Shown here: positions 49,390 through 58,482 of the stretch, one piece after another
Position numbering within the stretch: the first letter of the stretch is position 1
Layout of the letters: each line of letters opens with the position of its first letter
Assembly (NCBI GenBank): GCA_034687125.1
Contig: JAQGBZ010000040.1
Location: 186,001-250,000 of the forward strand
Direction: 5' to 3'
Source: Neelides folsomi
Lineage: Eukaryota > Arthropoda > Collembola > Neelipleona > Neelidae
DNA length: 64,000 nucleotides
Translations under genes and position numbers: made by a program
Notes under the pieces: model-generated
Database searches by the model: none
What the model was told of the DNA's origin: nothing
What the model saw: the letters and a program-made list of their open reading frames with translations, nothing else

Positions 49390-52300
49390 ATGAGTGAATT
49401 CTTTTCACCGGAAATTTTGACTAGCATGAAGTTCTTCGTGAACATGCTAAAGGAAGATCCATCATTGCTTAACAGAGAAGAAATTAAGTTTCTGAAGGAT
49501 TATCTGGTTTGCAATGGATTTAAGGCAAGTTTTTAATTATTTTAAATATCTAACCTTATCTTTATAATTTCATTTTTAACTTAAGAGCTTAAACATGTTT
49601 CAATAATTAATTGCTTATTTTAGATTCCAACTTTGAAGAAGGAAGAGAAAAAGGATGCTCCAGGAGCTGGCGATTCTACAACGAAGGGATCACCCAAAGC
49701 TGAAGAGACCATTGAAGTCGAACCCGATGAACCTTATCCGGATCTTGACAACGAAGGAGTTATTGGTAAGCCAATACAAATTATTTAAATTGTTATAATA
49801 GATTACTGAGAATCATAATTAAACCACTTTTAATATAATAGATTCTGACATGCCGGACGAGACTCAAGAGATGGGTGATTTGGATGCAAGCCCAACTGAG
49901 GAGCAGATTGACGAGTCGAATGAATTGAAGAGTTCTGCAATGGGACATTTCGGTTCCGGTGACTTTCAAGCAGCAGTTGATGCTTTTACAAAGGCGATTA
50001 AGCTCAATGGTGGATCGGCTATTCTTTATGCTAAAAGAGGACAGTCGTATCTTCGATTGGGAAAGCCAAATGCTGCCATCAAGGATTGTAATCGAGCTCT
50101 TCAAATCAATCCTGATTCTGCTATTGCTTTCAAGTTCCGTGGAAGAGCACACAGGTATATGTTTATTCATTGTAATCATTATCAATATCGTTAGTTATTT
50201 AATTAAAATTTAATCTTTCCTTGTATCGTAATTTAAGTTAGCTTTAGTATTAGTATTTTTAGTATTTAAGTTATTGATATGAAATTTAATTCTAAAATGG
50301 ATTATAGGCTTCTTGGACATTGGGAAGAAGCAGCAATGGATTTACGTCAAGCTTGTAAAATTGACTTTGACGAACAAGCCGATGGTTGGCTTAAAGAGGT
50401 TCAGCCCAATGTAAGAACCAAATTATTATTTTATAGAAAAAGGCTCTACGTGATTTATTATACTTTTATGAATCATGTAGAAATTCATTTCTTTTCAAAT
50501 TTATATACATTTTTTCAATCAATTTCTCGATGATTTTCACAAAATGATTTTCACAAAATAATTTAAAATCTCTTAAATTACATAATTTAATTATCCTACA
50601 CTACAAACATAAAAATTCAAAAAGAATTCTCTTTTAACTTTGTATACACACGTCACGAGTCATTTACGTAATCTAGTTGAAGATTAAGTAATTTTTATTT
50701 CCGTCTTATGTTTCAAGTCCATGTCTTGCTTTTTTAAAGTCTATTTCAAAAAACAAAAAATATTGATTCTAGATAAATCAATTAAATGAGTCAAACATAA
50801 TATAATCTATTACATAATTAATAATTTTATACACAATCTTTGATATAAGGTACTTTTAAATTATTATTTACATTTAATTTACATTCTTCCTCGATATGGT
50901 GCATTGTGTTAAATTACATTCAATAACATTACATTTTTCAAAAACTAAAGTTCAGCCTTTCTGGAGTCTAAAGTGTAACGTATAAATGAGGTGCTCATAT
51001 AGTACATGTATTACAATTATCTATCGACATTTAGGATGTCTTGGACTAATGAATTAGCATACTTGAGAAAAAATCACATTCAAAAAATTTTTGATTTTGG
51101 CTCAATTTCCTCATTAGTCATAATTAGCAATTAAATTAAACCTTTCTAAATTGGTATATTTTTTATAATTAGGGAATTGAGAATTCGTCATCGGTTGATT
51201 AGAAATTCTTTCTTATCCTTTCATTTCAGTAATACAAACCTTTTCCCACATTCTTTATTCACAAATTGACATTTAATGTCAATCCATTAAATGTACAATT
51301 TCCCTATTTCATATTTAATTGTTGGTTCAATCAATCGATTTTCTCTTTTCATTTTTTAACATTATTATCAATATTACATAATCATTATTCTTTAAGATAT
51401 TTTAGCTTTCTCGTATTCAGTTCAACAGACCTTGACTCTTCCAGATTCATTTTGAAATGAGTTTCATGGTTCCCATATTCAAAACGCATTTGGTGGAAAA
51501 TACGGATTTTTAAACAAAGGGGGGATTTTTTGGATTTTACGGAATCTCCAGGCGTCGGTTTATTGAAGGATCTAAGTTTTCTTTTGAGCGTTTGCAATTG
51601 AGTCTCTCGACCGGCGGAATCGCCCGAGGAGGTCAGGCAATTCATAGGCAATCGCCACATCCAGCTTATTAATGGGACACCCGCGGAAATAACTACAGGT
51701 TGACGAAAGGGTCGGGAACTCCCACAAGGGATTTAACCGGAAAAAATCCCTATATGTGTCAGGGTCTGGGAGGTCATAGCGGGAGATATTCGTTAGTGTT
51801 GATAGTCCTTCGTAAATATGATAATTCTGTTAAAAAAACAAAAAGTTAATTAATTAATTCTCATTTAGAGAAAATTAAATTTTGTTGAAATAAATAAATA
51901 TATATATATATAATATATCAGAATTCTTACTTGAGGATGCTCAATAATATCATCAGAGATTTTCTTCTTATTAGAAAAGAATGACCGATGGTTGTTATAA
52001 GTGTTAAGATAGCAATCACACATTTTCCCATGATTTCGAACTCGAACTGCAAATCTTCTTGCAGCAGCAATTCTTGTTTCAACTCTTTTTTCAGTAGCTT
52101 CAGCAATGTCTTTTAAGAAACTTTCTTCATGGGCTGAGAGAAGTGAAACAGGGGCTTCTGGTTGAAGTGGGCGATCCCATAGAGAAGCAGCATACCTTAA
52201 AATATTTTATTTTTATTTATTAGGAATTGAGAAGACATTATTATTTGAAGGCATGACATGACATTTGAATTGGATAATATCTTACATGATTGGTGGCTCA

Positions 52301-58300: not shown

Positions 58301-58482
58301 CCGGATTCGGCGGGATGGGAGGGATGCCCGGAGGGATGCCCGGAGGGATGGGCGGTATGCCCGGAGGAATGGGGGGCATGCCTGGATTCGGCGGAATGCC
58401 TGGATTTGGTGGAATGGGTGGAGGACCACCGGGAGGACCTGCAAATCCTCCAAAACCTCCAAATGCTGATGACCTTGATTAA
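49390..58482 (+). CDS. ST13: Hsc70-interacting protein (Hip / ST13)
   Basis: Cytosolic co-chaperone that binds the Hsc70 ATPase domain and stabilises its ADP state. Six exons: 49390-49524, 49624-49765, 49842-50154, 50308-50410, 57809-58043 and 58172-58482, giving 412 residues. Order: N-terminal dimerisation segment ([16 protein letters not shown]), an acidic linker ending [11 protein letters not shown], three TPR repeats ([39 protein letters not shown]), a charged helix ([19 protein letters not shown]), and a C-terminal DP/STI1 domain ([22 protein letters not shown]). The GGMPGG-rich repeats follow the STI1 domain here; in the human protein such repeats lie before it. Intron 1 uses a GC donor. 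Intron 4 (50411-57808) holds the whole sarcalumenin gene on the other strand. Confidence 0.95.
51572..56977 (-). CDS. SRL: Sarcalumenin (SR-luminal acidic protein with EHD-type GTPase domain)
   Basis: Luminal Ca2+-binding protein of the sarcoplasmic reticulum that supports SERCA in muscle. Eleven exons on the minus strand: 56977-56908, 55137-54814, 54487-54413, 54359-about 54195, 54016-53504, 53377-53261, 53154-52982, 52682-52506, 52416-52286, 52195-51931 and 51826-51572, giving about 754 residues. Exon 1 encodes a signal peptide ([19 protein letters not shown]). Exons 2-5 encode a Glu/Ser/Asn-rich acidic region of about 280 residues. Then comes the EHD-type module: [21 protein letters not shown]-loop [18 protein letters not shown] switch (EIPGIL replaces DTPG), [14 protein letters not shown] and NKADSI. 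The C-terminus has a CSYFRGC motif. An in-frame ATG at 57019 is possible, but 56977 gives a cleaner signal peptide. The donor of exon 4 is weak. The gene lies wholly inside ST13 intron 4. Confidence 0.92.
51893..51921. repeat. TA microsatellite in a sarcalumenin intron
   Basis: AATA and TA dinucleotide run beside the donor of the penultimate exon. Short and low complexity. Confidence 0.7.
52753..52782. repeat. Short telomere-like TTAGG tract
   Basis: Four TTAGG units in 30 bases, partly spaced by 5 bases, inside a sarcalumenin intron. TTAGG is the usual arthropod telomere repeat; such interstitial tracts are common and may be incidental. Confidence 0.6.
52812..52905 (-). ncRNA. Candidate structured intronic RNA (H/ACA snoRNA-like)
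   Basis: A GC-rich patch inside an AT-rich sarcalumenin intron. Read on the minus strand, CTTTGC (52891-52886) pairs with GCAAAG (52850-52845) and encloses an inner ACAGC-TT-GCTGT hairpin. Downstream is a GCCT-GTT-AGGC hairpin (52830-52820), then TGC and ACTTACA. Two hairpins with a 3' ACA resemble an H/ACA snoRNA, but no clean ANANNA box is seen between them. Confidence 0.25.
55138..56907. other. Sarcalumenin intron 1
   Basis: 1.77 kb intron between the signal-peptide exon and the acidic exons. It holds a GC-rich patch at 56085-56260 and a MEF2-like TTATAAATAG at 56580-56589. Both could be regulatory; no coding exon is recognised. Confidence 0.6.
58270..58445 (+). repeat. Coding Gly-Met-Pro repeats in ST13
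   Basis: Imperfect 9-15 base units encode GGMPGG, GGM and PGFGG runs in the last ST13 exon. GGMP repeats are normal for Hip proteins. Confidence 0.85.

Follow-up and report, generated by a model that had tools for sequence, protein, structure and literature searches.

A sarcalumenin-type gene nested antisense within the fourth intron of ST13 in the springtail Neelides folsomi

Nested genes are reported to be frequent and to lie mostly on the strand opposite to that of their hosts (PMC12274878, PMC3786989, PMC8467205). For Caenorhabditis elegans, 567 opposite-strand nested pairs have been described (PMC12274878); counting either strand, nested genes are put at approximately 6% of the gene complement in Drosophila melanogaster (PMC3786989, citing others) and at 452 pairs, or 4.4%, in human (PMC8467205). 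The opposite-strand nested pairs of C. elegans are described as being co-expressed on average below the level of neighbouring genes, yet co-expression among them is not rare, and the nested gene seems likelier to induce its host than the host to induce its nested gene (PMC12274878). The effects of nesting on expression are also reported to differ between Drosophila and mammals (PMC8467205, PMC13343718). Among arthropods, a same-strand arrangement has been described in a tick, where a helicase gene is nested in papilin and stretches of exon are shared between the two (PMC3160391). The locus described here, in which one complete coding sequence sits inside a single opposite-strand intron of another gene, is most readily set beside timeless2/2mit of Drosophila and polq-1/ceh-10 of C. 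elegans, to which we return below.

The window, by which we mean the whole stretch of DNA that was analysed, comprises 64,000 nucleotides (C40:186001-250000) of a genome assembly of 75.1 Mb in 840 contigs, and positions below are counted from its first letter. An earlier note on this DNA had placed a sarcalumenin gene antisense in the fourth intron of ST13 and had described both exon chains as complete and phase-consistent. For the host gene, this description stands, and its parts are as follows.

49390-49524, 49624-49765, 49842-50154 and 50308-50410, plus strand: ST13/Hip exons 1-4, from the splice and phase check, encoding the HipN and TPR regions
57809-58043 and 58172-58482, plus strand: ST13/Hip exons 5-6, encoding the charged region, the STI1/DP domain and a GGMP-type tail (the tail by inspection)
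50411..57808, plus strand: ST13 intron 4, the host intron, 7398 nt, phase 0, with GT-AG ends and no N

The six exons join with matching phases into an open frame of 412 aa (splice and phase check), and introns 1 to 5 measure 99, 76, 153, 7398, and 128 nt, respectively. All of the introns are GT-AG with the exception of intron 1 (49525-49623), which is a GC-AG intron whose upstream exon ends in AAG and whose own sequence opens with GCAAGT; GC-AG is a rare but known class of splice pair. An AT-rich 18-bp tandem array of about five copies occupies 57710-57804 and stops four bases short of the region of the AG/exon border at exon 5. The protein matches the Pfam families HipN (E 1.9e-8), TPR_1 (E 9.2e-18), and STI1-HOP_DP (E 1.8e-10), and its residues 85-252 align with the solved structure of Hip (4j8d) at an E value of 1.3e-55. 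Because this alignment runs continuously across exons 4 and 5, with residue 231 at their join ungapped, the two halves of ST13 form one gene, at least as coded. A search of the ST13 protein against its own genome returned seven matches, six of which are the ST13 exons on C40, the remaining one being a match of 29% identity on C96. The likeness to known ST13/Hip thus comprises the HipN, TPR, and DP domains, the GGMP-type tail, and the alignment with solved Hip; the protein is unremarkable, and the gene differs in the GC donor of intron 1 and in the very long intron 4.

The minus strand of that intron carries a second exon chain, the parts of which are given below in the order of transcription.

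51572..56977, minus strand: sarcalumenin-type gene, with its start codon at 56977 and its stop codon ending at 51572
56977-56908, 55137-54814 and 54487-54413, minus strand: exons 1-3, from exon-combination enumeration with a frame and splice check
54359-54195, minus strand: exon 4, uncertain, an acidic in-frame cassette of 165 nt with the weak donor GTTCGT
54016-53504, 53377-53261, 53154-52982 and 52682-52506, minus strand: exons 5-8, from the same enumeration and check
52416-52286, 52195-51931 and 51826-51572, minus strand: exons 9-11, from the same enumeration and check

Eleven exons encode 754 aa and ten, without exon 4, encode 699 aa; both frames are open. The splice sites of the ten exons other than exon 4 are ordinary GT-AG, and ten of the eleven exons look firm. 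With a poor donor, and with the frame intact when it is skipped, exon 4 is uncertain, and to call the nested chain complete at eleven exons was a slight overstatement. In the acidic front half of the gene, 136 of the 1085 enumerated exon combinations are open (1085 being the product of the option lists), and exons 3-5 therefore have borders that frame alone does not fix. For the back half, 1800 acceptor combinations were translated in all three frames; four of them reach the stop codon without interruption, and these four chains differ only at the acceptors of exon 6 (by two codons) and exon 7 (by one codon). Exon 5, which is also acidic, contains a 33-bp tandem repeat (53819-53891; 2.2 copies, 100% match) that is possibly a length-variable stretch. 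The first intron contains GC-rich patches at 56060-56420, for which the own-genome search gave no place but their own and Rfam gave no family; they could have a regulatory role or form an alternative first exon.

The coding span of this gene, 51572-56977 on the minus strand, falls wholly within ST13 intron 4 (50411-57808, plus strand), of which it takes up 73%, and there is no overlap of exons; its coding exons are set back from the two intron ends by 1161 nt and 831 nt. The nesting arrangement on opposite strands is thereby confirmed, and it is not a product of chance, since the ST13 halves align continuously to Hip and the GTPase part of the nested protein aligns to EHD4/EHD2. No Rfam match at the gathering threshold indicated an RNA gene in 49000-59500, and a codon-bias scan, which was trained on the same two genes and is weak because it missed short true exons, gave no segment for a further coding gene in 50411-51571 or 57048-57808; one segment that it did give, 56925-57047, surrounds the first exon of the nested gene and is in a different frame.

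We read the locus, with a probability of about 0.8, as a host/nested pair of the ordinary kind, in which two protein-coding genes occupy the same space independently. The gene for the Hsc70 co-chaperone Hip, ST13, would be transcribed through the 7.4 kb intron and its exon 4 spliced to exon 5, and an independent, intron-bearing sarcalumenin-type gene would be transcribed on the opposite strand inside intron 4, presumably from a promoter of its own that lies upstream of 56977, with polyadenylation of its transcript probably a short way past 51572. The nested gene would be expressed mainly in muscle, and the pair may have been retained passively, without a regulatory link between its members. 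The signals that bear on these transcripts are as follows.

57068..57074, minus strand: TTTAAAA, TATA-like, approximately 97 nt before the start codon of the nested gene (motif listing)
51259..51564, minus strand: four AATAAA/ATTAAA motifs, with 5' bases at 51564, 51319, 51277 and 51259, all within approximately 320 nt past the stop codon of the nested gene

The TTTAAAA motif is a possible core promoter of the nested gene, and the four AATAAA/ATTAAA motifs are possible polyadenylation signals for its transcript, although motifs of this kind are common in AT-rich DNA. The earlier note had suggested that the arrangement could lead to interference between the transcripts or to antisense overlap in muscle. 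Given these motifs near the nested stop codon and the margins of 1161 and 831 nt, antisense overlap is expected to be confined to the nested transcript and the ST13 pre-mRNA; by virtue of the same margins, the mature mRNAs would not be complementary unless their untranslated regions reach that far. Four MEF2-type motifs are present in the nested first intron, a count reached by 0.015 of 200 dinucleotide shuffles (one of eight tests), and the motif listing contained none in the 831 nt between the nested start codon and the end of intron 4. As evidence of muscle control, these motifs were discounted because 542 of 6223 overlapping same-size windows of the 64 kb hold as many.

The best surviving alternative, which we consider unlikely, is that, in cells where the nested gene is strongly transcribed, its transcription stops that of ST13 in intron 4 through opposing polymerases and so gives rise to a short ST13 polyadenylated within the intron. 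Past the end of ST13 exon 4, the frame stays open for 40 residues up to a stop codon at 50531-50533, for a total of 271 residues (231 + 40), and the first plus-strand ATTAAA of the intron lies past this stop, at 50781; the resulting protein would keep the TPR region and lose the DP domain and most of the charged region. Precedents are found in mouse, where nested transcription at H13/Mcts2 is reported to drive intronic polyadenylation of the host (PMC13309782), and in C. elegans, where the nested gene of the polq-1/ceh-10 pair is reported to induce a short host transcript (PMC12274878), but each of these cases concerns one locus, which for H13/Mcts2 is also mammalian and imprinted. The strong form of the signal is moreover not enriched, as the plus strand of intron 4 has 3 AATAAA against a mean of 6.0 in 200 base-composition shuffles; the weaker form, ATTAAA, occurs 14 times against a mean of 7.7 in such shuffles. 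We judge it very unlikely that the locus acts as a regulated switch, in which nested transcription in muscle would truncate ST13, with the TPR region kept and the DP domain lost, and in which the nesting would have been kept by selection in the lineage. Conservation of the nesting in relatives, or a shortening of ST13 by nested transcription in muscle, would give the locus greater weight, as it would then be a natural test of host truncation by nested transcription on the opposite strand.

In our preferred reading of two independent genes, the nested one is of the sarcalumenin type. Its protein has a hydrophobic start (by inspection) and 30% D+E across residues 1-300, and a Pfam scan of the 699-aa version at an E value of 0.001 gave only EHD_N (E 7.8e-9) and the GTPase family MMR_HSR1 (E 7.8e-6), with no EH domain listed. 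A P-loop (GPWSGGKST) and an NKxD motif (NKAD) can be read in the protein, and its G3 motif is EIPG, where the usual motif is DxxG. Pfam Dynamin_N has six matches over the genome, none of them at the nested gene, and it was also absent from the scan of the nested protein; the evidence for a GTPase is accordingly that from EHD_N, MMR_HSR1, and the solved structures of EHD proteins. We take the layout of the protein, with its hydrophobic start, acidic N-terminal stretch, EHD-type GTPase part, and unlisted EH domain, to be that of sarcalumenin (SRL), from which it differs in the EIPG motif; known sarcalumenin is located in muscle calcium stores, and we infer a muscle role for the nested protein from the vertebrate name. 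The two gene identities proposed earlier are supported, for ST13 by the Hip domains and alignment and for the nested gene by an EHD-type GTPase with an acidic front. A comparative study puts sarcalumenin with EHD, by their GTPase domains, in the dynamin family (PMC7016017).

More doubtful still than the regulated switch is a reading of the nested gene as a diverged copy, or as a membrane GTPase of the EHD family, and not as sarcalumenin. All six matches of its GTPase part to solved structures are EHD4 or EHD2 (E 1.2e-45 to 6.4e-44) with no sarcalumenin among them, and the EIPG sequence of the G3 motif also leans in this direction. The hydrophobic start and the acidic stretch of the first 300 residues argue against it, as do the lack of an EH domain in the Pfam scan and the frames, which are open throughout. 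The own-genome search with the nested protein gave nine matches, seven of which are the nested exons themselves (C40, 79-99% identity), and the other two, of 33-38% identity, are on C212, where a separate gene with both dynamin-type and nested-protein matches may be the EHD.

Least probable of all is an assembly artefact in which two unrelated stretches were joined and ST13 falsely surrounds the nested gene: the assembly is a draft, but the window is free of N, the ST13 halves share a strand, follow each other in the right order and phase, and have valid splice sites, the own-genome protein searches found no second high-identity copy of ST13 or of the nested gene, and in the own-genome nucleotide search, which omits simple repeats and very common words, the end parts of intron 4 and the nested first intron matched only themselves, with no repeat seen that could have caused a false join.

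As to its origin, the nested gene is best traced to a rearrangement at the DNA level, or to ST13 having changed around it later. Retroposition was ruled out and the gene is not a retrocopy, because approximately ten introns are kept; an intron-bearing nested gene that is not a retrocopy is a less common form. Insertion by way of a repeat or transposon was rejected as well, the search that omits simple repeats and very common words having placed both ends of intron 4 and the first intron of the nested gene at their own position only. Seven inverted repeats were listed in 49000-59500 and appear by eye, without a control, to be AT-rich chance pairs.

Upstream of ST13, the plus strand carries a MIOS gene (Pfam MIOS_a-sol), the last frames of which we take to end at approximately 44582, followed by an SS18-type gene with an SSXT domain at 47036-47215 (C40:233036-233215). 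One gene lies between these two.

45349-46326, minus strand: GPI2/PIGC gene, intronless, between the MIOS and SS18-type genes (both plus)

This gene was considered as a second nested gene and rejected as intergenic, given where the MIOS frames end and where the SSXT domain of the next gene lies. There were no other nested pairs among the genes placed in the annotated part of the window. Downstream of ST13, the frames are on the minus strand, and two pieces of them had no Pfam match. A Pfam match to Myofilin (E 9.8e-10) in the frame 36118-36576, approximately 15 kb from the nested gene, suggests that this frame is perhaps another muscle gene on the contig. Elsewhere in the assembly, the mitochondrial contig (C742:3610-4950 and flanks) uses the invertebrate code, with COX1 named by Pfam and frames beside it that we take to be ND2, COX2, and ATP6; the stop-to-stop frames of COX1 and COX2 are 28 nt apart, a spacing with little room for the leucine tRNA usually found at this place in insects and crustaceans. 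Taken alone, the spacing would fit an arthropod outside those two groups, for instance a chelicerate such as a mite.

A search of a literature library for 'ST13' and 'sarcalumenin' as whole words returned no paper with both, and the literature matches listed held nothing on the position of the sarcalumenin gene in arthropods or Drosophila; as far as that library search goes, the pair of ST13 with a sarcalumenin-type gene is unreported. Its likeness to timeless2/2mit and polq-1/ceh-10 is that a full coding sequence is contained in one intron on the opposite strand and that the functions of the two genes are unrelated, and its difference is that another pair of genes is involved. ST13 and its sarcalumenin-type guest are thus one more host/nested pair, in this case in a small (75 Mb) genome.
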